Origin: Pseudanabaena sp. UWO311
GTDB taxonomy: Bacteria > Cyanobacteriota > Cyanobacteriia > Pseudanabaenales > Pseudanabaenaceae
Assembly: GCF_006937785.1 (NCBI RefSeq)
Contig: NZ_SJEE01000023.1
Span: 1 to 64,000 of the forward strand
Reading direction: 5' to 3'
DNA: 64,000 bases
Shown here: positions 7,589 to 54,990 of the stretch, one piece after another
How positions within the stretch are numbered: the stretch's first letter is position 1
Layout of the letters: every line of letters starts with the position of its first letter
Notes under the pieces: model-generated
What the model was told of the DNA's origin: nothing
What the model saw: only the letters and a program-made list of their open reading frames with translations
The model's database searches: none
Position numbers and translations under genes: made by a program

Positions 7589-7999
7589 CTAACTTCCGAA
7601 ATGAGAAAAGATGAAATGCTGCTTGATTACGTCAAATTTGGTGCATTCCCAATAGTCAATATGGGAAATAATTAATTCACCTTTATCATCAAGGGTGAGA
7701 TCACTCCAGCCAGTAACTGCAATTCTCGGCTTCCAAGGTAAAGGCGCATCCCAACTCATTGTCCAGCGAGTTTTGATCAGATTATCCGTACGATTAATTG
7801 CGTGGAGATCTAGCTTGAGATTTTTAAACCAAAAGGTAATAAAGCCAATCATCTTTTGATATTGCTTGATGCCGCGAAAGTTATAGACAGGATCTTTAAA
7901 ATAGACATCTTCGCTATAGATGCTATAGGTCTGCGCTTCAGGAAATTTTGCGTAATCAGCTTGCACAATATCGAGAATGTTGGTCATTGATGTGGTCAT
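7589..7999 (-). CDS. DUF2358 domain protein
   Basis: A protein of 136 residues when started at MTTSMTN (7999), preferred because the 26 residues upstream look non-coding and contain a HIP1 site just before the Met. The body (NILDIVQADYAKFPEAQTYSIY; VYFKDPVYNFRG; RWTMSWDAPLPWKP; ISHIDYWE) matches DUF2358, a SnoaL/NTF2-like alpha+beta barrel common in cyanobacteria and chloroplasts. The family has no proven activity. A decayed second copy lies at 6985-7075 on the other side of dgkA. It is divergent from the DUF2214 gene, with starts 127 bases apart. Confidence 0.7.
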   Translation of the reverse strand: MTTSMTNILDIVQADYAKFPEAQTYSIYSEDVYFKDPVYNFRGIKQYQKMIGFITFWFKNLKLDLHAINRTDNLIKTRWTMSWDAPLPWKPRIAVTGWSDLTLDDKGELIISHIDYWECTKFDVIKQHFIFSHFGS

Positions 8000-8126
8000 T
8001 TTGCGATCGCCTCTAACGAAATTGTGGCATTGACCTTTGATGATAACCTTGAGAACGCGCAACTCTAAGAACCTCAAGAGAGATTAGAGCGCTTTACATT
8101 AGAAATTATTAATTTAGGAGAATCTT

Positions 8127-8585
8127 ATGTGGGCTAATGCGATCGCTGCTTATTTACATTATTTGAGCTTAGGGCTTATTTTTGCGGCTTTATCTACAGA
8201 ACTATTTACCCTAAAGCAAGACCTAACCAATCGTGATGGATGGCGAATTCTGATAGCCGATACTATTTATGGAATTGCAGGAATTACAGTCTTAGTAACG
8301 GGGATTTTAAGATATTTATATTTTGAAAAAGGCGCAGATTACTATTCCCATCAACCAGTTTTCTGGATGAAAATATCTGTATTTATTGCGGTTGGCTTAT
8401 TTTCGCTATATCCCACAGTTTCGTTCTTGATGTGGATTAAAAACCTTCGTGCGGAAAAGCCTCCAGAAGTAAGCCCAGAGAAAGTCAAAACCTTAAGAAC
8501 CATCATTCACATTGAGCTTGTTGGATTTAGTCTCATTCCTCTCCTTGCTTCCATGATGGCAAGAGGAATTACGTTAGGCTTATAA
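8127..8585 (+). CDS. DUF2214 family membrane protein
   Basis: A 152-residue protein with four hydrophobic segments (about 5-25, 44-62, 80-104 and 124-148), matching DUF2214, a small predicted membrane family. The start has TTAGGAGAAT about 6 bases upstream. A conserved His in AAYLHYLSLG and Tyr/His residues in the loop (GADYYSHQPVFWMKI) recall haem- or metal-binding membrane proteins, but that is speculative. It is followed by a short hairpin at about 8588-8613 (GGGGACGCTAAGCGTCC) shared with the convergent arsR gene. No function is known to me. Confidence 0.65.
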   Translation: MWANAIAAYLHYLSLGLIFAALSTELFTLKQDLTNRDGWRILIADTIYGIAGITVLVTGILRYLYFEKGADYYSHQPVFWMKISVFIAVGLFSLYPTVSFLMWIKNLRAEKPPEVSPEKVKTLRTIIHIELVGFSLIPLLASMMARGITLGL

Positions 8586-39686: not shown

Positions 39687-39815
39687 AGCAATTCTCATTT
39701 TAAAAACAGGTTTTTTGAAAGTCTGTCGTAGACAGACTTTCAAAAAACCTGTTTTGGGTTACCCAGAGCCATAGGCTCTAGATAACCCAAAACAGGTTTC
39801 ATAATGAGAATTGCT
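39687..39815. repeat. Composite nested palindrome, 129 bp
   Basis: Outer arms AGCAATTCTCATT (39687-39699) and AATGAGAATTGCT (39803-39815) are perfect complements. Within, 39703-39755 is a hairpin with 25-base arms closing on GTA. 39756-39788 is a second hairpin (GGGTTA...TAACCC with AGAGCC-ATA-GGCTCT inside). AAAACAGGTTT occurs at 39703, inverted at 39745 and again at 39789. The outer motif AATGAGAATT also appears at 12858 and 17209. Confidence 0.75.
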
Positions 39816-43096: not shown

Positions 43097-45256
43097 GTGA
43101 GACCAGAAGAGTCATCCACTCTTGAGATCAAAGAGATGCTTCATCACGTACTTACGGTTGAAGATCCACAAGGTTTTCGTAATTTTCTCTTGAATAATAT
43201 GACTTATTCTCTAGGACGCAGTTTGGGGAATTCGATAATTCTGCGTTCTAATCTTGTATCTCGACAACACGCAACTTTGTTAGCCGTAGCTTCAAAGAAA
43301 TCTTCTTGTTTCTTCCGAATAATTGATGGCAGTGCAGAAGGTAAGCGTAGCACAAATGGAATTTTAATTAACGGCAAAAAGCGATTTTCGCATATATTGT
43401 CTCATGGTGATGAAATTCTCTTTAGCAAAGATACTAAGGCGGTCTATCAGGTGATCAGTGCGATTACCAATATACCCAAAATTAATAGCCCTCAAAATCA
43501 GATTTCTGAAAGCAGCTATCCTAAGTTCAATAATCAATCCTTTGATGAGACAAAGCCTTTTCGATTTTCTCCTTTACAGGCTATTCCCGAACAAGATTTA
43601 TCTACGCATGTCCATAAAACTATCAATCAATTCATTGCGTCACCAGAGCTAAACCCCCAACCAATTATCGAGTTAAATCTCGTTGGTAAAATCTTATATC
43701 TTAATCCTGCGGCGTTATCTCAATTCCCTAATCTTGAAGAGCTGAGAATCAATCATCCTCTACTTCAAGAGCTATTGGTTCAATTGCTGCCATTAGTCAA
43801 TCCTGTGCGCAAATTTTTTATGCGAGAGGTGTCAATCAGTGACAAGGTATTTGAAGAAATCATCCATTTCATGACTTGGAATGAAGTAATTCGGATACAT
43901 ATAGCTGATGTTACAAATCAAAAGCAAGCAGAAGCGATAATCTCCTATCAAATTCATCACGATGCATTGACAGGACTCCCAAATCGAAAATATTTACATG
44001 AGCATCTAGTTGAAGTAATCGAAAAATTAGAAGATAAAGAAAAGTTATTTGCCGTTTTATTTCTAGATATTGATCGATTTAAGTTAATTAATGATTCTCT
44101 AGGGCATAACGTTGGTGATCTATTACTAAAGGCTGTGAGCGATCGCTTAAAAAGTTTGCTCAAGCAGGGTGATGTGATGGTGCGTTGGGGTGCAGATGAG
44201 TTTGCGATCGTCGCTAAGGATATCAATTGTGCTGATGCCGTTGTCCAAATTGCTGAAGCTATGATTCAAGCTTTGACTTTACCTTTTAATTGTGATGGAC
44301 ATGAACTTCATATCACAACCTGTATTGGTGCAAGTATTTATCCATCTCATAATACTGAAGTCGATGCACTAATTCGGAATGCAGATATGGCAATGTATCG
44401 GGCTAAAGCAGAAGGGCAGAATAGCTTTCAGTTTTATATTCCGAATATGCAAGAGCAAAGTTTTCAACGATTATCCATGGAAAACAATCTGCGAAGAGCG
44501 CTAGAGAACAATGAACTGCTGACATACTACCAACCTCAAATCGATTTAATCACAGGTAAAATTGTTGGATTAGAAGTCTTGCTACGATGGAAACATGTCT
44601 CTTTAGGTTCAATTCCCCCAAGCCAATTTATTCCTTTAGCTGAGGAAACAGGACTAATCACGGCGATTGGGACTTGGGTTTTACGGCAAACCTGTTTACA
44701 GGCGATCGCATGGCTAAATATGGGATTGCCACCGATTCAGATTGGCGTGAATTTATCGATCAAACAACTTCAACAAAAAGATTTTCTATCTTGTTTACAA
44801 CAAATTCTTGAAGAAACAAATCTTGATCCTCATTTCCTAGAGTTAGAAATTACTGAAGGAATTATGATGGACAATGTTGAGGAGAAGATTGTCTTGTTAA
44901 ATGAATTCCGTCAGATGGGAATTCAGTTGTCAATTGATGATTTTGGCACTGGTTACTCAGCTCTGAGCTATCTGAAAAACTTGCCAATTGATACGCTGAA
45001 GATAGACCGTATTTTTATTGAATATATTGCTCACAATGCCCACGATCGCGCAATTGTGGCTTCGATTATTAGTTTGTCCCATAGTCTAGATCTGAATGTA
45101 ATTGCTGAAGGTGTCGAGACCCAAGAGCAAGTTGATGTGTTGCGATCGCTAGGCTGCGATCAGATTCAAGGTTATTTTTATTACAAGGCACTACCCGCAG
45201 ATGACATCGAAACTTTGTTAAGGGCTCAAGGAGTAACTAGACCAAATCATCTCTAA
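43097..45256 (+). CDS. FHA-GGDEF-EAL protein with altered GADEF and EVL motifs
   Basis: A 719-residue protein starting with GTG 43097 ([20 protein letters not shown]). An FHA domain (about 30-115) shows [20 protein letters not shown] and [18 protein letters not shown], the phosphothreonine-binding loops. A linker and a PAS-like stretch (about 190-280) follow. The GGDEF domain (about 290-450) has [13 protein letters not shown], Gly replaced by Ala in the signature. The EAL domain (about 465-710) has [10 protein letters not shown] instead of EAL, with [31 protein letters not shown] and DRIFI intact. The cyclase may be inactive or weak and the phosphodiesterase active. The FHA domain suggests control by Ser/Thr kinases. 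Confidence 0.85.
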
Positions 45257-45313
45257 CGATAAAAAAATTTAAAAGTGTTGCGAAGCAACACTTTTAAATT
45301 TTTTTATCGTTAG
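45253..45313. terminator. Bidirectional terminator between convergent genes
   Basis: CTAACGATAAAAAAATTTAA and its complement form 29-base arms closing on GAA, with the TAA stop of the FHA gene (45254-45256) inside the stem. The M61 peptidase gene converges and ends at 45328. Confidence 0.8.
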
Positions 45314-45327
45314 GATTGGCGATAGCC

Positions 45328-47088: not shown

Positions 47089-47113
47089 ATAGTCGGCGCG
47101 AAGCGCCGACTAT
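47089..47113 (-). terminator. Hairpin spanning the cytosine deaminase stop
   Basis: ATAGTCGGCGC and GCGCCGACTAT pair around GAA; the stop (47110-47112) is in the stem. The apex CGGCGC-GAA-GCGCCG belongs to the family discussed for 13542 and 57638. Confidence 0.65.
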
Positions 47114-48444
47114 ATCAAATCATCAAGCTCTGCATAATCGGGCAAAGTCGTATCGATCGCCATACCATTTCTAAACACAGTGCGATCGCTTTGCGGACGA
47201 GATAGCAATTCATTATAGCTACGCGCCTTAAATAGAACTAAGTCGGCGATCTGTCCAATTCCAATTTTACCAACATCAGGTAAGCCCATCAGTTTTGCAG
47301 GTCGAGAAGTCACAGCCTCGATCCAGTTGTCATAGGGAGTATCTAAATGCGAAATCTTTGTCCCCATGCTGAAAACTTCTAATAAATCATGATCCCCAAA
47401 CCCATAGAAAGGATCGCGGCAATTGTCGCTGGATAGTGCTACACAGACATCGGCTGCATCTAGCTCACGAACTAAGGTAACACCCCGCCAGCGAGGTGTT
47501 CGCTCCGCAACCCGATCTTGTAAATACAGATTGCACATTGGTAAACTAACGATGCCAATATTTGCTTCTTTAACAAGGGCGATCGTCGTATTGGCGATAT
47601 CTTCATCTTGTACTGCCAAACTACAGCAATGACCGCAGACTACTTGCGAACTAAAATTATTTCGTAAACTGGCTTCGGCAATATAATGCAATGTGCGCGA
47701 TTGCGGATCATTATTCTCATCTGCATGGAAATCAGCACTGAGATTGCGTTCGGCAGCTAAGATGAAAATCCGATCTAAGTATTGATCTAGTCCTGTGACC
47801 ATATGGGCAATGCCGCCAATAATGCCACCTAAATCAGCGATCGCATCAGCAAATAGTTCTCCTTCGTGAGTTGAGAAATAAGGTAGCTGCACTAGTGACA
47901 CAGCTTGAAGGGTGATTTTCTCCTTCCATTTTTCCCGCAGTTCTTTAAATACTTTAAATGTAGTCTCCACTTGATGCGGTGGGCAATCTAAATGAGTCCT
48001 TATTGCTTTTGTGCCGTGGGCATAGCTGCACTTCAGTCCAAATTCCATACGGCGATAGAGGTCGTCATAGTTCCAATTGCCTTGCTCTGTGCAATCGCGA
48101 TAAATGCCTGTGAGTGCACCTTGAAATGTGCCATCTAAATTCGGATTGCGTTCCCAAATATGTCCTTTGTCAAGATGGGTATGTGAGTCAGCAAAGCAAG
48201 GAATCATGATCCCCTGTTTGCCATCGATGATTGGTAAACTTTCTGTAGGAATTTCTGCAATCCGAGAACTAGGCAAAATTTCACTTATTTGACCATTACG
48301 GATTTCGAGATGGCAAGGAAATAGGCGATCGCGCTGCAATGTCGGCGAGAGGTGAGCTTCTAGATTTTGCCCAATAATTTCACTATCGATAAAACAATTT
48401 GGTATCCGAACATTGACAATCCAATAATGCAAAGGTTCTAGCAT
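47110..48444 (-). CDS. codA: Cytosine deaminase-like amidohydrolase
   Basis: A 444-residue amidohydrolase. The metal ligands are His88 and His90 in FADSHTHLDKGH, a His in SADFHADENND, CGHCCSLAVQD and the Asp in ALSSDNCRDPFYGFGDHDLL. This last block with FYGFGDHD is typical of CodA, which converts cytosine to uracil and ammonia. The N-terminal insert (SEIIGQNLEAHLSPTLQRDR) is longer than in E. coli CodA. Related enzymes act on creatinine, isoguanine or triazines, so substrate remains open. No permease (codB) accompanies it. Next on the left is the M61 gene; to the right is the integron-like region. Confidence 0.82.
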   Translation of the reverse strand: MLEPLHYWIVNVRIPNCFIDSEIIGQNLEAHLSPTLQRDRLFPCHLEIRNGQISEILPSSRIAEIPTESLPIIDGKQGIMIPCFADSHTHLDKGHIWERNPNLDGTFQGALTGIYRDCTEQGNWNYDDLYRRMEFGLKCSYAHGTKAIRTHLDCPPHQVETTFKVFKELREKWKEKITLQAVSLVQLPYFSTHEGELFADAIADLGGIIGGIAHMVTGLDQYLDRIFILAAERNLSADFHADENNDPQSRTLHYIAEASLRNNFSSQVVCGHCCSLAVQDEDIANTTIALVKEANIGIVSLPMCNLYLQDRVAERTPRWRGVTLVRELDAADVCVALSSDNCRDPFYGFGDHDLLEVFSMGTKISHLDTPYDNWIEAVTSRPAKLMGLPDVGKIGIGQIADLVLFKARSYNELLSRPQSDRTVFRNGMAIDTTLPDYAELDDLI

Positions 48445-48790
48445 AGGACTAATGTATATTTAGCTTAATATACCGCGATGTGCAACTATTTCTAGCTGTA
48501 AGTAATTCCTTACTAAACTGCGATCGCAATGATCGCTTAATAACTATTTGTCTTCTCGTCGGGACGCATTCTGAAAGGAATCGCCGATAACTTCTCGGAA
48601 CTAAACAACGAAGCGAACCATTTTTGACTGCCTAATCTTTGCTCGAAACAGATAGCTTTAACGGGCGCATCGGTTCGGTATAACGGTCTATTTGAGCCGC
48701 CGCAAACAATTTTTGACTTTTATAGATCACTTTTGAAGGGGCGGCTCCAACGCAGTGTTAGACAGCTTTCACTGATAACTTTTTACTGAG
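48445..48790. other. Spacer holding the distal end of the integron array
   Basis: 48445-48592 contains HIP1 sites and nothing else recognisable. 48593-48763 is one copy of a 171-bp repeat whose right half is an attC-like site (48678-48763). The copy at 50166-50336 has the same length. Confidence 0.6.
48678..48763 (-). other. attC-like recombination site 1 (86 bp)
   Basis: Read on the minus strand: R'' GTCTAAC, spacer ACTGC, L'' GTTGGAGCCGCC, a central part, L' GGCGGCTCAAA, spacer, R' GTTATAC. L'' and L' pair with one unpaired base, the extrahelical base expected in attC. R'' fits the RYYYAAC consensus; R' departs from GTTRRRY at one base. It begins 27 bases beyond the stop of the aspartic-protease gene (48791), the position expected in a gene cassette. 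Confidence 0.78.
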
Positions 48791-49162
48791 TCATAGCGCT
48801 TCAACTCTCACGATACCTCCTTCAACTGCATCTATTCGCAATCCATACTTGTAGAGTAGCGACATTCCAATTAAAGGGTCAGTCTCTGATTCAGCAACAT
48901 CAATTTCACGAAACTGTCCATCCCAGATAACTGTTACTGAATACAGATCAAAGAAAGTTTCGCTACCGTCACCCAAGGTCACGATGTCGGAAGCGTTCCA
49001 CGGTAAATCAAGAGCAGTAATGATTGAGGATGGCAAAGTGAGGAACCCATTGAAACCTGTGTCAATGACAGCATCGATAACTTGCCTTTGCCCGTTCGCA
49101 TTACCCACAACCAATGGAAGTGTTGCCTCACAGCGCCGATTCACAATTCCCTGCATCATTTG
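48791..49162 (-). CDS. Retropepsin-like clan AA aspartic protease, intact copy
   Basis: A 123-residue protein starting at MMQGIVNRRCEATLPLVVGN (49162). The DTG motif in DAVIDTGFNGFLTLP holds the single catalytic Asp (about residue 33), typical of retroviral-type aspartic proteases that act as dimers. VTLGDGSETFFDLYSVTVIW and LIGMSLLYKYGLRIDAVEGG complete the clan AA fold. The start overlaps the stop of the ~90-aa gene by seven bases, showing translational coupling. The same two-gene order occurs at 49513-50018. The upstream frame up to 49225 is antisense-like filler. Biological role unknown; a toxin/antitoxin-like or processing pair is inference. Confidence 0.78.
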   Translation of the reverse strand, partial: QMMQGIVNRRCEATLPLVVGNANGQRQVIDAVIDTGFNGFLTLPSSIITALDLPWNASDIVTLGDGSETFFDLYSVTVIWDGQFREIDVAESETDPLIGMSLLYKYGLRIDAVEGGIVRVEAL

Positions 49163-49431
49163 GGCTTCACCAAACTCCGCGAGCCAAAGTGATAAACAGC
49201 ACGATGTCCAATGCGGATAACCCAAGGTTGAGCATCAGGATGTCGCTTGAACAATTGGTTAGTTGCTGGCAAAACATGATCTGCAACTTCAAAAGCTCCA
49301 GTTTCAATATCGATCGCTACTATTTTGCCTGTATTGCCAAATTCTACTTCCTGCCGAATGCTCGATTCATAGAGTTCTTGCCCACGTCGAGCTAATTCTT
49401 CTTTGCTGTAACGCCGTTGACGAACTGACAT
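49156..49431 (-). CDS. ~90-aa partner protein, downstream copy
   Basis: A 91-residue protein (MSVRQRRYSKEELARRGQEL). It is a paralogue of the product of 49746-50018: both share the RYSKEE start, GNxGKIVAIDIETG(A/D)FEV in the centre and HPDAQ(P/I)W(V/I)(I/V)R(I/V)G(H/S)R with a basic tail. The first third looks helical and the rest beta-stranded. I do not recognise a named function. It precedes, and overlaps by seven bases, the intact aspartic-protease gene. The conserved acidic IDIETGxFE segment could mimic a substrate or bind the protease; that is speculation. Confidence 0.72.
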   Translation of the reverse strand: MSVRQRRYSKEELARRGQELYESSIRQEVEFGNTGKIVAIDIETGAFEVADHVLPATNQLFKRHPDAQPWVIRIGHRAVYHFGSRSLVKPK

Positions 49432-49512
49432 AGCTTTTGTGTTGTTAGTTTATAATGTCATTATAGCTTTGAGCAACAATGAAACCCTACATTTGGCAAT
49501 AAAAAAGGTTCG

Positions 49513-49749
49513 TTACATACCATTAACGCACCCTGCAAGATCGGCGATCGCACTTCCATCGCCAAGAATAGCGCGTCCTCGTCTTTTCCATTTCAGATTT
49601 AACCGTTCAATCAGGTCTGGAGGCAATGAAAGCCAACCATTAAAACCAGTATCGACAATCGCATCTTGCGTATAAATCTTTCCTTCAGAGACACATATCG
49701 ATAGCGAGATAATTGCCTCAAAATCTGTGTTAACAATTCCTGAGATCAT
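49513..49749 (-). pseudogene. Retropepsin-like protease, truncated copy
   Basis: A 78-residue frame (MISGIVNTDFEAIISLSICV) homologous to the first two-thirds of the 48791-49162 product. It retains the catalytic DTG in DAIVDTGFNGWLSLP and ILGDGS, but then reads AIADLAGCVNGM and stops; the C-terminal GMSLLYKYGLRI half is missing. It overlaps its upstream partner gene by four bases (ATGA). The loss of the C-terminal dimerisation strand suggests an inactive or non-autonomous form. The break lies near 49555, at a HIP1 site. Confidence 0.7.
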
Positions 49750-50018
49750 ACTGCTCTTTTTGTTCGTCCACCAAATCGGCGAACGTGGCGGGAACCGACT
49801 CGAACAATCCAGATTTGAGCATCTGGGTGACGGGCTTCGAGCCTATTGCAAGCAGCTATTTCACGAGCATCAACTTCAAAGTCTCCAGTTTCAATATCAA
49901 TGGCAACTATTTTGCCCTGATTACCTGCTTCGACTTGTGGGCGTATTTGAGTCTGATAAATTAGATCGCCTCGTTGGGCAAATTCTTCTTTGCTATAGCG
50001 GGGTTGACGGACTGCCAT
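49746..50018 (-). CDS. ~90-aa partner protein, upstream copy
   Basis: A 90-residue protein (MAVRQPRYSKEEFAQRGDLI) about half identical to the 49156-49431 product, with the central GNQGKIVAIDIETGDFEV and the basic C-terminus SRHVRRFGGRTKRAV. The stop overlaps the start of the truncated protease. It is the first gene of the segment between attC2 and attC1 as read leftward. Proteins of this size with a protease partner are new to me as a named system. The basic tail might bind nucleic acid. Confidence 0.72.
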   Translation of the reverse strand: MAVRQPRYSKEEFAQRGDLIYQTQIRPQVEAGNQGKIVAIDIETGDFEVDAREIAACNRLEARHPDAQIWIVRVGSRHVRRFGGRTKRAV

Positions 50019-50452
50019 GATTGCGAATTTTCCTAGATCATTGACTTGTCTAGCATTATAGCTGACCAGAAATCGCTATGAATAGATTGCCTCTCACATA
50101 TCCAAACCAAACCGCGATCGCACCGATCGCCTATCAATTATTTGACTTTGTGATCGCAATTAATCTCTCGGAACTAAACATCGAAGTCGAAGATTTTTGC
50201 TTGCTCAATCTTGGCTAGAAGCCACTCACTTCAACGAACTTCGCGATTGTGCATAACGGTGAAGTTGTGCGGCGGTAAGTAGCCTTGAACACCCACTGAA
50301 AACCTCTATACCGTCCGCACCAACGCAGTGTTGGGCTGCTTAATTTACTCACTAAGATGCTGGATTTTCAGCACAATCGCAATAATTGAATGCAAATTGC
50401 CTAGCGTTCCGAGAGAGGTAACAACTATTTGACTCATGCTCCTACCTCTAGA
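50019..50452. other. Spacer holding the second 171-bp repeat
   Basis: 50019-50165 carries the upstream region of the ~90-aa gene; no promoter was recognised. 50166-50336 is the second 171-bp repeat, including attC2. 50337-50452 follows the Rieske gene stop on its strand and shows nothing further. Confidence 0.55.
50251..50336 (-). other. attC-like recombination site 2 (86 bp)
   Basis: On the minus strand: R'' GCCCAAC, spacer ACTGC, L'' GTTGGTGCGG, centre, L' CCGCACAAC, spacer TTCACC, R' GTTATGC. L'' and L' pair with one extra base in L'', as in genuine attC sites. It has the same length as attC1 and a shared spacer ACTGC. It lies 117 bases beyond the stop of the Rieske oxygenase gene. Confidence 0.8.
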
Positions 50453-51433
50453 TTATTCATGAGGTTGCCATTCACGATAAAGTTTCTCCACATAGAGCAT
50501 GATTTCCTCTTTGGGCAGACGAATCTTGGGCTTTTGCTGGGGATAGAGGCTTTCTAAAGTTGCTGAATCTTGTTCTACCACCATAGCTGTTGCTTTGAGC
50601 AAAGCATTTTTAGCCAGAACATTCAATCCTGGTAATTGGAACAACGGATTTTTCCATTCTCCATAGCAAAGAACGAATGTTTTGGTGCGTCGATCGGTTT
50701 CGGGATAGAGAATATAAAATTGAGGAATCTGACCGAAATCAACGTCTCCATCGAACATTGTGGTGGAGGGAAACGTATACTCCAAATTGCTGTTATAGGA
50801 TTGAGGCATACTGATAAGCCCAGGATTTGCCAGAATTTCTTTGAGGGTATTCCGCTCCCGGATAAAAGTCTGCTCTACCTTGGCGAAGTAGCCATCTGAT
50901 TCAAACCTGTGGACAGGATTATCTTTGATTTTAAAGCTTTTGCGATGACTTCCATTTTGATGGTTAAAGTCATAGTTGATTTTGATGCAGCTTAGAAAAT
51001 CTGCATGAATACTTTTTTCGCCAGCAACACCCACAAAGGTTAACCCTGCGGTTCTTCTGGGAATCAGATCGGGAATGGGCAAGCGCGGTTCAAATCCCCC
51101 ATAAGTCCAGATTAGATCGTCCTTAATATGCAACTCTAGAGGCTGTACGACTGCCTGTCCCTGCGCCAAACCATCTTTGCACAACCGACCTTCCCGATCG
51201 AATTCAAGAGCATGAAATGGGCAAGTAATCGTGTCATGAGACTCGCAAATCCATCCATTAGATAGAGGTGCTTGCATGTGAGGACAGGTGTTTTCTAATG
51301 CAAAAATATTCCTCTGGGTATTTTGCCAAAGAACATAATCCTGACAATTTAAGGTCACTTTATAAGGCTGATTTACGCCCAGCATTGAGCGATGGGCAAC
51401 GAGCCAAGGCGCACCAGGAAGAATGGGGAGCAT
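50453..51433 (-). CDS. Rieske [2Fe-2S] ring-hydroxylating oxygenase-like protein
   Basis: A 326-residue protein. The N-terminal Rieske domain (about 8-110) has CPHMQAPLSNGW and CPFHALEFD, giving the 2 Cys/2 His cluster ligands. The C-terminal part resembles the catalytic domain of short oxygenases (PaO-like), with YDFNHQNGSHRKSFKI containing possible mononuclear-iron His residues and a second Asp in FDGDVDFGQIPQFYILYPET. Its substrate is unknown. It is divergent from a TetR-family gene (starts 67 bases apart), implying local regulation. It lies within the integron array between attC3 and attC2, a large two-gene segment of about 1.8 kb. Confidence 0.78.
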   Translation of the reverse strand: MLPILPGAPWLVAHRSMLGVNQPYKVTLNCQDYVLWQNTQRNIFALENTCPHMQAPLSNGWICESHDTITCPFHALEFDREGRLCKDGLAQGQAVVQPLELHIKDDLIWTYGGFEPRLPIPDLIPRRTAGLTFVGVAGEKSIHADFLSCIKINYDFNHQNGSHRKSFKIKDNPVHRFESDGYFAKVEQTFIRERNTLKEILANPGLISMPQSYNSNLEYTFPSTTMFDGDVDFGQIPQFYILYPETDRRTKTFVLCYGEWKNPLFQLPGLNVLAKNALLKATAMVVEQDSATLESLYPQQKPKIRLPKEEIMLYVEKLYREWQPHE

Positions 51434-51500
51434 CTCAATTCTCTACTAAATCTTGATAGAGTGAAGTATATCAGAAGTAAGTTAATAGTTGTAACTAAAC

Positions 51501-52088
51501 ATGGGTCGTCCCACCAAAGAAAATTCGCTGTCGAGGCAAGATGTCGTTGCTGCGGCGATCGCCTGTATCGATCGAGAAGGAGCGTCGGCACTAAGCGTGA
51601 GTCGTGTGGCACGAGAACTTGGCATTAAGCCTCCTGCCATTTACAAGCATTTAGAGAGCGGATTAGCATTACAAAAGAGCGTAGTATGTAAGCTTTGGGG
51701 ATATTACTTACAGGAATGTCAAGAGAAGATTATTGAAACTTCTATCCCCTCAGAATCGTTAAAACAGATGGGACATTTCGCCCGTCACTTTGCCCGCACC
51801 TATCCTGCTCGCGCTCAGATCATGATGCAAACTCGACTTCAGACCAGCGATCCAGAAGCCGCAGAGATTATCCAGCAATTTATCATGTTTCTGCGTCAGA
51901 TGCTGGGTGCTTGCGACCTTGCGGACGATCGACTCATTGATGTGATGCGGATGATTAATGCCGCAATTTATGGGTTTATCACGATCGAACAAGCAGGACT
52001 AATGACGTTAGAGCGTTCTGCGGATCGGAGTTTTGAGGTCATGTTAGAGGCGTTGATGGTAGCGATCGCACATATCCAGCAGCATTGA
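51501..52088 (+). CDS. TetR-family transcriptional regulator
   Basis: A 195-residue regulator. The N-terminal helix-turn-helix reads LSRQDVVAAAIACIDREGAS then ALSVSRVARELGIKPPAIYKHLESG, the TetR signature. The C-terminal ligand domain (about 75-195) contains MGHFARHFARTYPARAQIMM. It is divergent from the Rieske oxygenase gene, so that gene is the probable target and its substrate or product the probable inducer. It runs against the usual cassette direction. Its stop is 43 bases from attC3. Confidence 0.85.
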   Translation: MGRPTKENSLSRQDVVAAAIACIDREGASALSVSRVARELGIKPPAIYKHLESGLALQKSVVCKLWGYYLQECQEKIIETSIPSESLKQMGHFARHFARTYPARAQIMMQTRLQTSDPEAAEIIQQFIMFLRQMLGACDLADDRLIDVMRMINAAIYGFITIEQAGLMTLERSADRSFEVMLEALMVAIAHIQQH

Positions 52089-52130
52089 ACTCAGAATTTG
52101 CGGATTGTGATTTCACTAATAACTCCAGCC

Positions 52131-52219
52131 GCCCAACGAGTCCGTTCACCCGCCGCGAACTACCTCTCGGACTCAACCAACCATCTTTTAACGGTCGGCG
52201 TGCAACGGAATTGTTGGGC
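52131..52219 (-). other. attC-like recombination site 3 (89 bp)
   Basis: On the minus strand: R'' GCCCAAC, AATTCC, L'' GTTGCACGCCG, centre, L' CGGCGGGTGAAC, then GGACTC and R' GTTGGGC. Both R boxes fit the consensus exactly. L pairing is imperfect, with unpaired bases on both arms. The TGA stop of the GNAT gene is separated from R'' by only three bases, the classical cassette layout. Confidence 0.82.
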
Positions 52220-52222
52220 GGC

Positions 52223-52750
52223 TCAACTGGTTCTGAGATTTCCTGTATCCACCCATCCATAAGCCACCTCGATTAGCGGCTTTCCACCAATCGTAAGCTC
52301 CTTTTCATGAACAATCTTGCCTCCAAGGGCAGCATAAAATTGACACGCAGGATTATCGACCAACACCCACACCAACATGGAATTAATACCCAATCGACCT
52401 AGCCTTTCCGCGACGACCTGTAAGAGTCCGCGTCCAATGCCTTTTCCTTGATAGCTTTGTCGGATATAGATTGCCATCAACTCACCTCTATATATCGGAT
52501 CACCTATGCGCTCTACCCCTCCATTCGCAAATCCGACAATCTCACCAGATTTATCCTCTGCAATATAAGTAAAATTGCCATCGTCCGGGGCACGGTTCAA
52601 AATCTGATACCAACCGTTTGCCCGCCGCTCATACGATAGATTTGCTAGATGTTCATCTGGCACGATGCCGCGATAGGTCGTTCTCCAAGTATCCACATGA
52701 ACCCTGGAAATGGCGGGAACGTCGCTCTGAGTTGCTTCTCTTATCATCAT
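52223..52750 (-). CDS. GNAT-family N-acetyltransferase (first integron cassette)
   Basis: A 175-residue GNAT (MMIREATQSDVPAISRVHVD). The acetyl-CoA loop is visible as RQSYQGKGIGRGLLQVVAER (R/Q-x-x-G-x-G/A), with LAVLVW-like NSMLVWVLVDNPACQFYAALGG, the motif B Asn-Pro and Tyr. The substrate is unknown; cassette GNATs include aminoglycoside and streptothricin acetyltransferases, but this one has no specific signature. The gene is bounded on the right by an attI-like core (52899-52905) and on the left by attC3, so it is the first cassette. Met2 at 52747 is an equal start candidate. Confidence 0.82.
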   Translation of the reverse strand: MMIREATQSDVPAISRVHVDTWRTTYRGIVPDEHLANLSYERRANGWYQILNRAPDDGNFTYIAEDKSGEIVGFANGGVERIGDPIYRGELMAIYIRQSYQGKGIGRGLLQVVAERLGRLGINSMLVWVLVDNPACQFYAALGGKIVHEKELTIGGKPLIEVAYGWVDTGNLRTS

Positions 52751-53043
52751 CGGAATCTTGACCCACCCAACTGTCTAGGAATCGCAGACTGACAATTCGA
52801 TCAAGTTGTTTCATTGCGCGATCGCCCAATCTAAACCATTCAGACTTCAAAATCCCAACCGATACCTTCAAAGTACTGCCTCATCGATAACTTAAGCCGC
52901 CCAACTATATATTATCTTGTAGATTACAGGATAACTACCTATACAAGATGAATATCACACAACTTGTTATATAAAGCAACCAATAGGTGTAATAACAAGA
53001 TTTTTGCAGGGTAATATACCCTAATAGAGTTTTATCGATCAAA
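52751..53043. other. Cassette leader and attI-like region upstream of intI remnant
   Basis: Between the divergent GNAT and intI genes. It contains a HIP1 site, the core at 52899-52905 and AT-rich sequence (52906-53043) with the inverted repeat TATCTTGTA/TACAAGAT (about 52914-52952), where the intI and cassette promoters would lie. Confidence 0.5.
52899..52905 (-). other. attI-like core site
   Basis: GTTGGGC on the minus strand, followed by GGCTT, repeats the R' box and flank (GTTGGGCGGCT) of attC3. No L boxes accompany it, as in attI. It sits 138 bases from the intI start, between the integrase and the first cassette. Confidence 0.7.
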
Positions 53044-53321
53044 ATGCAGCATAACATTCCTAAACCTGTGCTGAAAAATAATGCGCCTATCCCCACCACA
53101 ACCGATCAAGTTGAGCCACCGCCTAGAAAGCTGCTCGATCGCGTTAGTGATGCAGTTCGGGTCAAGCATTACTCCTATCAAGCTGAAAAGTCTTATGTGC
53201 AATGGGTTAGGCGATTTATCCTGTTTCACAATATAGCGACATCCAAGTGAAATGGGTGGTATTGCATTTACAGGACTTAGAACGTGGACATGGCGAAGTT
53301 CATCTTCCATCGCTGAACTAG
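53044..53321 (+). pseudogene. intI: Integron integrase remnant
   Basis: ATG 53044 opens a frame of 68 residues with PPRKLLDRVSDAVRVKHYSY followed by QAEKSYVQWVRRFILFHN, the N-terminal DNA-binding domain of integron tyrosine recombinases. Removing one T in AATATAGCG restores the expected HNKRHPSEMG; without it the frame ends at 53250. Further on, from about 53259, another phase reads VLHLQDLERGHGEVHLPSLN, part of the central IntI region between the catalytic boxes. About 130 residues between the two pieces and the whole C-terminal catalytic part are missing. It is therefore inactive. Its divergence from the cassettes is the canonical integron arrangement. Confidence 0.85.
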
Positions 53322-53376
53322 ATATCACCAGATCCCCGACTTTTTACATATTGACAAGAATTCAGATTATCTTGAG

Positions 53377-53556
53377 GCAGTTAAATGAGCGACTAATGCG
53401 CGTAATCCTAAACGATAGCTCTCAGCACCAAAACCACTAATTTGCCCGATCGCAATTGGTGCAATAAATGAATGATGGCGAAACTCTTCGCGTTTATATA
53501 CATTACTGAGATGTACTTCTACAGTAGGTATATTTACAGAGGCGATCGCATTATCC
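53377..53556 (-). pseudogene. aroQ: Partial copy of aroQ (3' part)
   Basis: A minus-strand frame with [20 protein letters not shown] and on to [20 protein letters not shown] matches the last ~60 residues of the intact AroQ at 54541-54990 almost perfectly. The N-terminal 85 residues, including the catalytic Tyr loop, are absent. It lies between the intI remnant and the Rpn gene, in the same orientation as aroQ. Confidence 0.85.
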
Positions 53557-53649
53557 AAAAAATATTCAGCGATCACCTTAGATAAAGGAATATGCGATCG
53601 CTCTTAGAATAACTAAAATGTTATTAGTACCACCAGATAATATAAATAT

Positions 53650-54519
53650 ATGATCTTCATCAATCCCAAAATCGACTTTGCTTTCAAAAAGATTTTTGGC
53701 TCTGAAGATAGCAAAGATATCTTGATTAGCTTCCTAAATGCTCTAATTTATGAAGCACAGCCAGTTATTTATGACTTAGAAATTCTCAATCCCTACCTTG
53801 CGCCCAAAATTCGCGGTGTTAAAGATACTTATTTCGATATCAAAGCAAAAATTACTGATAGTGAAACAGGTGAACAGCGCACCGTCATCATTGAGATGCA
53901 AGTCCTGAATATAGAAGGATTTGAAAAAAGAATTTTATACAATGCGGCAAAATCCTATTCTGTCCAACTGCCTACTGGACAGGGCTATAACCTTCTCAAT
54001 CCAGTCATTGCCTTAACAATTACTGATTTTGTGATGTTTGCGGATCTACCTAATGTCACCTCTCGTTTTGTCCTAAAAGAAAAAGATTTTCTAATTGACT
54101 ATCCTATCTATGACATTGAATTAATCTTTGTAGAATTGCCAAAGTTCAAAAAGAATTTGCCAGAACTAAAAACCATTATCGATAAATGGCTATTTTTCTT
54201 AAACAACGCTCGTAAACTGCAAAATATTCCTGCAACGATGGATACTATACCTGAAATTAAAAAAGCTTTTTATATCGCCAATCAAGCAAACCTTACTCTT
54301 GATGAGTTAGAAGATCAAGAAAAGAGCGAGATTTTCATTCAAGATCAGCGTGGGGCAATTACAAAAGCGACTAAGGAAAGCTTAGAACAAGGAAGACAAG
54401 AAGGTCAACGGCAAAAAGCCTATGAGATTGCAAAAAAAATGTTAGGTAATTTTGATGAACAAGCGATCGCCGTTATGACAGGGCTAACTCTGGAAGATCT
54501 GCGATCTTTACAAGACTAA
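53650..54519 (+). CDS. Rpn-family recombination-promoting nuclease (PD-(D/E)xK transposase-like)
   Basis: A 289-residue protein starting MIFINPKIDFAFKKIFGSED, the hallmark of the Rpn/PDDEXK transposase family. Asp in GVKDTYFDIKAKITD and Glu-x-Gln in TVIIEMQVLNI form the nuclease site (D...ExQ), as in Rpn proteins. The C-terminus ends in a charged, Gln-rich tail (ESLEQGRQEGQRQKAYEIAK) usual for the group. E. coli RpnA is a Ca2+-stimulated DNA endonuclease that promotes RecA-independent recombination; cyanobacteria carry many paralogues. It lies between the partial and intact copies of aroQ. Confidence 0.85.
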   Translation: MIFINPKIDFAFKKIFGSEDSKDILISFLNALIYEAQPVIYDLEILNPYLAPKIRGVKDTYFDIKAKITDSETGEQRTVIIEMQVLNIEGFEKRILYNAAKSYSVQLPTGQGYNLLNPVIALTITDFVMFADLPNVTSRFVLKEKDFLIDYPIYDIELIFVELPKFKKNLPELKTIIDKWLFFLNNARKLQNIPATMDTIPEIKKAFYIANQANLTLDELEDQEKSEIFIQDQRGAITKATKESLEQGRQEGQRQKAYEIAKKMLGNFDEQAIAVMTGLTLEDLRSLQD

Positions 54520-54540: not shown

Positions 54541-54990
54541 TCAATTTCCCTGTTGAGTTCGGAGTAAATGATTAACTAATGCACGTAAGCCTAAACGATA
54601 GCTCTCAGCGCCAAAACCGCTAATTTGCCCGATCGCAATTGGTGCAATAAACGAATGATGACGAAATTCTTCGCGTTTATACACATTACTCAGATGTACT
54701 TCTACAGTAGGTATATTTACAGAAGCGATCGCATCTCTCAGCGCCACACTGGTATGCGTAAAAGCGGCGGGATTGATCAAAATTCCTTGCTGTACCTGAA
54801 AAGCAGCATGAATCGCATCAATCAATACACCCTCATGATTTGATTGTAAAAAGCTTAATTCTGCGCCTAACTCCATTGCATCTTGAGCTAGGCGATCGTT
54901 AATTTGCGCTAATGTAGTGCTGCCATAAACCTCTGGCTCTCGTAAGCCAAGCATATTGAGGTTTGGCCCATGCAAAACCAGAATTTTCAT
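54541..54990 (-). CDS. aroQ: Type II 3-dehydroquinate dehydratase
   Basis: A 149-residue AroQ with [21 protein letters not shown] carrying the catalytic Tyr loop, [33 protein letters not shown], and [19 protein letters not shown] with the catalytic His. It dehydrates 3-dehydroquinate to 3-dehydroshikimate in the shikimate pathway. The protein works as a dodecamer. Length is normal. A partial copy of its 3' third lies at 53377-53556. The ccmK gene lies 38 bases upstream on the same strand, so the two may be co-transcribed. Confidence 0.92.

Follow-up and report, generated by a model that had tools for sequence, protein, structure and literature searches.

The window analysed here, a stretch of 64,000 nucleotides of Pseudanabaena sp. 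UWO311 (contig NZ_SJEE01000023.1, positions 1 to 64,000), carries at about 48508-53305 what is very probably the remnant of a chromosomal integron, in which the integrase gene intI has been destroyed and the attI and attC recombination sites have been kept, and whose cassettes appear to have been exchanged after the integrase was lost. A first-pass annotation of the letters alone had placed a decayed chromosomal integron with a leftward array, in a cyanobacterial host, at 48593-53321; the element, its direction and its host are all supported, and its bounds had to be corrected. Judging from the codA locus, whose three nearest named relatives by identity are Pseudanabaena lw0831 (97%), M085S1SP2A07QC (96%) and ULC068bin1 (92%), the host is a Pseudanabaena. 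The recombination features are these (scores from the covariance model R1, described below):

53044-53305, plus strand: intI pseudogene, made of the N-terminus (53044-53232), a frameshift, RHPSEMGG (53237-53260), a 416-bp internal deletion and part of the patch to about 53305, the C-terminus being gone.
52903-53043, plus strand: attI and intI leader, 83% identical to G018 and 79-80% to G014 and G013, where it lies upstream of intact intI.
52899-52905, minus strand: attI crossover core GTTGGGC (GCCCAAC on the plus strand), by direct reading; similarity to two sister genomes starts exactly there.
52131-52219, plus strand: attC 1, a divergent subtype (52.0 bits, E 2.6e-12).
50251-50336, plus strand: attC 2 (73.3 bits, E 1.9e-18).
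48678-48763, plus strand (the bottom, recombining strand): attC 3 (77.3 bits, E 1.3e-19).

The 24 attC sites on which R1 was trained lie in the regions around intI genes of other genomes, none of them in the window genome; one source region surrounds a broken intI (G016), and the choice of training sites was not blind, the pattern filters having been written after the window sites had been seen, with no letters of the window included. R1 finds all three sites at exactly the coordinates first proposed for them, on the plus strand, with E values from 1e-19 to 3e-12. With filters off, R1 next matches two of the attC read on their reverse strand, at 14.4 and 13.3 bits, and after them nothing above 11.8 bits (E 1.1) on either strand of the 64 kb. 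The paired R and L boxes and the strand asymmetry of attC are both present: the plus strand scores 77, 73 and 52 bits, the reverse no more than 14. Of the cells in the training alignment 89.7% are paired, where shuffling gives 81.5% and sliding the partners 43% at the highest; double-change pairs are modestly above shuffles (7 versus 5.4, a value reached in 33 of 500), and further pair types show no excess (15 versus 14.6). The asymmetric arm of an attC identifies its bottom strand, and because this arm lies on the same strand in the three window sites, the plus strand is the recombining one and the array reads leftward. Folding of the sites, which the first pass had recommended, gives z values of -2.3, -1.6 and -3.6 on the plus strand and -2.0, -0.9 and -2.1 on the minus strand, which alone are weak evidence. 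The attC 1 stretch by itself matches 12 of 37 other genomes of the family at 74-85% identity. At gathering thresholds, Rfam matched only a tRNA, and no attC, in the window. A home-made attC scanner was rejected as a detector, two perfect hairpins having outranked the true attC, and was kept for the collection of candidates only. Near-perfect long-armed hairpins at 45251-45315 and 39701-39757, unrelated to attC, are probably intergenic palindromic repeats.

The broken intI proposed on the plus strand is confirmed as well. Positions 53044-53250 match the integron integrase models PRK15417 (E 9e-8) and TIGR02249 (E 7e-7), with scores far under the whole-protein cut-offs of both, as well as PF13495 (E 1e-8), and further collinear IntI pieces lie in other frames at 53237-53260 and 53259-53309. 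The first pass had named the absence of any covariance-model match and of IntI homology in 53044-53321 as the outcome that would overturn it; R1 and the IntI models both match. The remnant is 70% identical to the IntI of G014 over 53005-53232, then continues with RHPSEMGG in another frame, and its stretch VLHLQDLERGHGEVHLP, which we take to be part of the IntI-specific patch, aligns with residues 228-244 of the same intact relative, with no match beyond; that intact protein matches the IntI of PDB 2A3V at 308 bits over residues 4-314 of 314. Searched alone, the 23-residue stretch 53249-53317 matched no family. The locus possesses an intI with part of the integron-specific patch, as a pseudogene, and no functional integrase: 416 bp are deleted, as measured against both intact G018 and G014, the frame is shifted and the C-terminus is lost from about 53305. 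The GTTGGGC core stands where the first pass had read it, and 52903-53044 is 79-83% identical to the attI of the three intact relatives; among the 16 compared, two others match partly at about 70% and the rest show nothing beyond 16 bases. This attI lies between intI and the first cassette, and the junctions of three genomes meet at its core.

On either side of the integron lies a native gene of the chromosome.

47110-48444, minus strand: codA, cytosine deaminase-like, left neighbour (NF005759, 613 bits versus a cut-off of 403).
54541-54990, minus strand: aroQ, presumably a type II 3-dehydroquinate dehydratase, right neighbour, kept beside codA in relatives.

Since aroQ and codA are spaced by at most 200 bp in 14 of the 24 genus genomes having both genes, the integron is an insertion between otherwise adjacent genes. 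The two genes share a contig with a larger gap in five genomes (the window genome G000, G027, G017, G025 and G011) and are far apart or on separate contigs in five others (G019, G026, G021, G010 and G012). Similarity of the codA flank stops at 48484-48507 in G021, G025, G012, G026 and G017 and at 48545 in G019, and from 53306 rightward the bases match the aroQ side. At least 6 of the 26 genomes of the genus have an intI or its remnant next to aroQ (G000, G027, G021, G019, G017 and G026), and the lesion described below is common to three of them, as expected of a sedentary chromosomal integron, whose fixed locus is inherited in a clade. The intI genes beside aroQ belong to the clade of the remnant in G000, G027 and G021, to another in G019 (a short fragment, loosely placed) and to a third in G026, where the gene is intact and the 13 attC matches of the genome are all on other contigs; this may point to a hot spot at aroQ-codA or to replacement of the platform. 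A 3' fragment of aroQ is present a second time at 53367-53576, separated from the intact aroQ by a gene of the PDDEXK_2 family (53650-54519), as if an insertion had duplicated the aroQ end. The layout is the same in G027, and G017 apparently retains only the ends of the PDDEXK_2 gene. As regards a mobile integron, carried by a transposon or plasmid, this gene beside the element is what was observed. Between 48.4 and 53.4 kb, promoter-like matches number 10 versus 8.9 by chance (standard deviation 3.2), and terminator-like matches 7 versus 3.8 (standard deviation 1.9).

From attI toward codA, the array consists of the following.

52223-52750, minus strand: GNAT acetyltransferase, first cassette (PF00583, E 8.8e-14).
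51501-52088, plus strand: TetR-family regulator, divergent from the Rieske gene and in the same cassette 2 (PF13305, E 1.5e-15; PF00440, E 9.9e-7).
50453-51433, minus strand: Rieske oxygenase-like gene, cassette 2 (PF00355, E 1.3e-16).
50094-50250, minus strand: gene-less cassette body whose attC appears lost, aligned with gene-less units of L072, of contig C13 of the same genome (L238) and of G026 (L230).
49513-50018, minus strand: protease cassette, a small open reading frame (ORF; 49746-50018) and a truncated protease (49513-49749; TIGR03698 matches 15-56 of 107 only).
48791-49431, minus strand: protease cassette, a small ORF (49156-49431) and a clan AA aspartic protease (48791-49225; TIGR03698, 56.3 bits, just below the cut-off of 57.35).
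48508-48677, minus strand: last gene-less cassette body, no attC of its own found, homologous to the L072 gene-less repeat units and to the tail of G027.

As the first pass had noted, the GNAT stop lies three bases from the end of attC 1 at 52219. The gene matches only G032 (67%), and the 37 other family genomes hold no near-identical copy, so that a recent transfer of the cassette from one of the genomes sampled was rejected. Further down, attC would have been lost at three cassette boundaries, so the original cassettes would have been more than three. The cassette at 49513-50018 would have lost its 3' end and attC and become fused to the next near 49553-49561. Such fusions are suggested because 48675-49561 (88% identical to an attC-bearing stretch in L078) and 49553-50093 (88% to L074, 87% to L065 and 93% to L227, in G021) match separate stretches, because the first protease retains 42 of the 107 model positions, and because L072 repeats the gene-less bodies in units of about 215 bases that each include an attC. 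The family of these gene-less bodies (about 130-170 bases; 50094-50250, 48508-48677, L072, L238:190-345 and L230) is kept across several Pseudanabaena, with many copies in one G014 array, and its alignment showed no conserved start or frame of a hidden gene. The pairs of small ORF and clan AA aspartic protease (48791-50018; L080:7576-8460) have similar DNA in contig C12 of the same genome and in G016, G018, G020 and G021.

The first pass had also called for a search of the rest of the genome. No intact intI exceeds the TIGR02249 cut-off in its 61 contigs (99.98% complete); at E 0.01 there are three weak matches, namely the remnant and a further two ORFs, and for one of these (524 amino acids) many genomes of the genus have an equivalent of about the same length. 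R1 finds at least ten attC at E 0.001, namely the three of the integron and seven elsewhere (one in C11, two in C12, one in C8 and three in C13); whole-genome counts are lower bounds, since of the roughly 600-1,130 candidates that a first look gave in each genome (about 1,000 here) 150 were scored. Two or more attC close together define a cluster of attC sites lacking an integrase (CALIN), and the window has three within 3.6 kb with no intact intI found. Across the genus, attC are present in all 26 genomes, with at least 2 to at least 70 matches each, and an IntI over the TIGR02249 cut-off in 13 of the 26, that of G016 with an internal stop and those of G027 cut by contig ends. Five pairs of genomes were taken as identical from the coinciding places of their matches (G027/G042, G021/G039, G026/G038, G017/G040 and G025/G041). 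G014 holds a large array (L072; C1 3489069-3533556) with many of its at least 70 attC, approaching superintegron scale.

Two sister genomes, Pseudanabaena sp. M085S1SP2A07QC (G027, L093) and ULC068bin1 (G021, L227), share the lesion of the window genome. The deletion junction is identical in the three, the C-terminus of intI is lost in G000 and G027, and the three remnants cluster with support 97/90 in an IntI tree that included the remnants, G026, G027 and G019 (G005b and G037 were dropped for long branches, G013a as identical to G014a). From the attI core to the junction the identity to G027 is 96.6%, versus 96-98% for aroQ and ccmK, and from 52939 to the junction that to G021 is 90%, versus 92-95% for aroQ, ccmK and the next ORF; because these values are close to those of the flanking genes, the deletion was inherited with its neighbourhood. 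At the attI core the genomes part: to its right, the window genome matches G021 at 37 of 40 bases (ungapped) and G027 in 43 of 46 columns of the alignment, and to its left the similarity is lost (7 of 25 with G021, ungapped). The first cassette encodes the GNAT protein in G000, a DUF4275 protein in G027 (E 1.7e-10) and, in G021, an ORF of 151 amino acids with no Pfam match. The left-hand similarity to G027 also stops inside the last attC, at 48700. The G027 array has one attC by the model and two when read by eye, and the attI of G021 carries, by eye, an insertion of about 150 bases with inverted ends (L227, about 7977-8130) that resembles a miniature inverted-repeat transposable element.

Because G027 and G021 share the 416-bp deletion with the window genome and yet differ in the first cassette at the same attI crossover, cassettes seem to have been exchanged after the loss of the integrase, and since the sequences part at the attI core beside a shared junction, at least two precise changes at attI postdate the deletion. 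The idea that this loss had frozen the cassettes consequently does not fit the sister genomes; it may hold for the window array now, in whose genome no intact intI was found. As the agent of the later exchange we lean slightly toward an integrase acting in trans: elsewhere in the sisters there are one intact intI in G021 and two in G027, cut by contig ends. Several points weigh on the other side. These integrases belong to IntI clades other than that of the remnant and their use of this attI is unproven; the TIGR02249 search found no cognate intact intI in the three carriers of the lesion; no attC was detected at E 0.01 between the first and second cassettes of G021; and both sister genomes are, by the titles of their records, metagenome-assembled.

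The history we propose begins with a chromosomal integron settled between aroQ and codA in the ancestor of part of Pseudanabaena, its intI reading toward aroQ and its cassettes captured at the attI core and displaced toward codA. In the common ancestor of G000, G027 and G021, the 416-bp deletion took out the central part of intI and put it out of frame, and G000 and G027 lost the C-terminus as well. The attI would have stayed usable and cassette exchange would have continued in the separate lineages, most simply through an integrase encoded elsewhere in the cell, and in the window genome, which now has no intact integrase, attC losses would have fused cassettes and partly eroded the array. Could the dead platform still be working, its attI having received cassettes in separate Pseudanabaena lineages through integrases located elsewhere, possibly of other IntI clades? 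We give this an even chance. If so, the aroQ-codA interval would be a shared docking station, held by at least three IntI lineages in close relatives.

The main rival, which we consider unlikely, is that homologous recombination with other strains swapped the stretch from attI to codA, no integrase having acted after the deletion. Donors exist, every searched genome of the genus carrying attC, the flanks are homologous between strains, and the tail 48445-48683 is only 85.6% identical to G027 versus 95.6% for codA, yet the non-coding 53306-53640 is as low (86.9%). The similarity to both sisters, however, is undiminished up to the attI core, stops there and is followed by different sequence, whereas a swap would more likely have left its step at a random place within attI-intI, where the identity is near that of the flanks. 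Somewhat less probable again is that one long ancestral array existed when intI died, of which the lineages kept different subsets by deletion; the protease cassette 49553-50093 does recur near the dead intI of G021, and the apparent attC losses and fusions are deletion at work, but at most one of the three first cassettes can be ancestral, and each of the others would have to result from a deletion with its end precisely at the attI core, an event that in turn requires an integrase. Chance look-alikes of R and L boxes beside an unrelated phage-type integrase fragment have a negligible probability, for while the RYYYAAC and GTTRRRY boxes are short and the loose core pattern hardly discriminates (47 matches in the whole genome versus 40 for the reversed control), R1, trained on sites of other genomes, refutes them at E 1e-12 to 1e-19, and the IntI models, the IntI patch, the attI homology and the empty sites speak against them too.

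The integron type is already known and its history, with apparent exchange after integrase loss, is unusual. Cyanobacterial integrons, which the first pass had called sparsely described, are on record: a paper of 2008 refers to a survey that lists Cyanobacteria among integron carriers (PMC2426708), and an attC model for Cyanobacteria was published in 2021 (PMC8352920). A literature search on Pseudanabaena with integron returned no paper with either term in its title or abstract. The present survey reveals a cyanobacterial genus with attC throughout, and three genomes with one deletion but different arrays offer a way of testing, in free-living cyanobacteria, whether cassettes are exchanged after inactivation. 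According to PMC2426708, nearly a third of the intI genes of one survey are inactivated, and class 2 integrons with an intI2 pseudogene likewise have a dead integrase; they differ in being typically mobile and inactivated by an internal stop codon, where here it is by a deletion. The sedentary chromosomal integrons of Vibrio (PMC11014356) contain gene-less cassettes like the units of the Pseudanabaena clade, but they belong to another phylum and hold hundreds of cassettes, with promoter activity shown in Vibrio. The remnant resembles a CALIN, a term found in PMC12444791, in that several attC and cassettes are present while the genome yielded no functional integrase, and CALIN are said there to be mobilisable in trans; it differs in that attI and the intI pseudogene are still attached, its origin as a complete integron being visible. 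A further likeness is to the Xanthomonas integron at ilvD, for which the same paper describes an ancestral, fixed locus, an integrase often inactivated by shared lesions and arrays that persist, inactivation being linked to more stable cassette arrays. In Xanthomonas, however, the same intI lesion usually goes with identical arrays (an earlier study of 32 strains, as reported there), whereas in Pseudanabaena the same deletion is accompanied by three different arrays.

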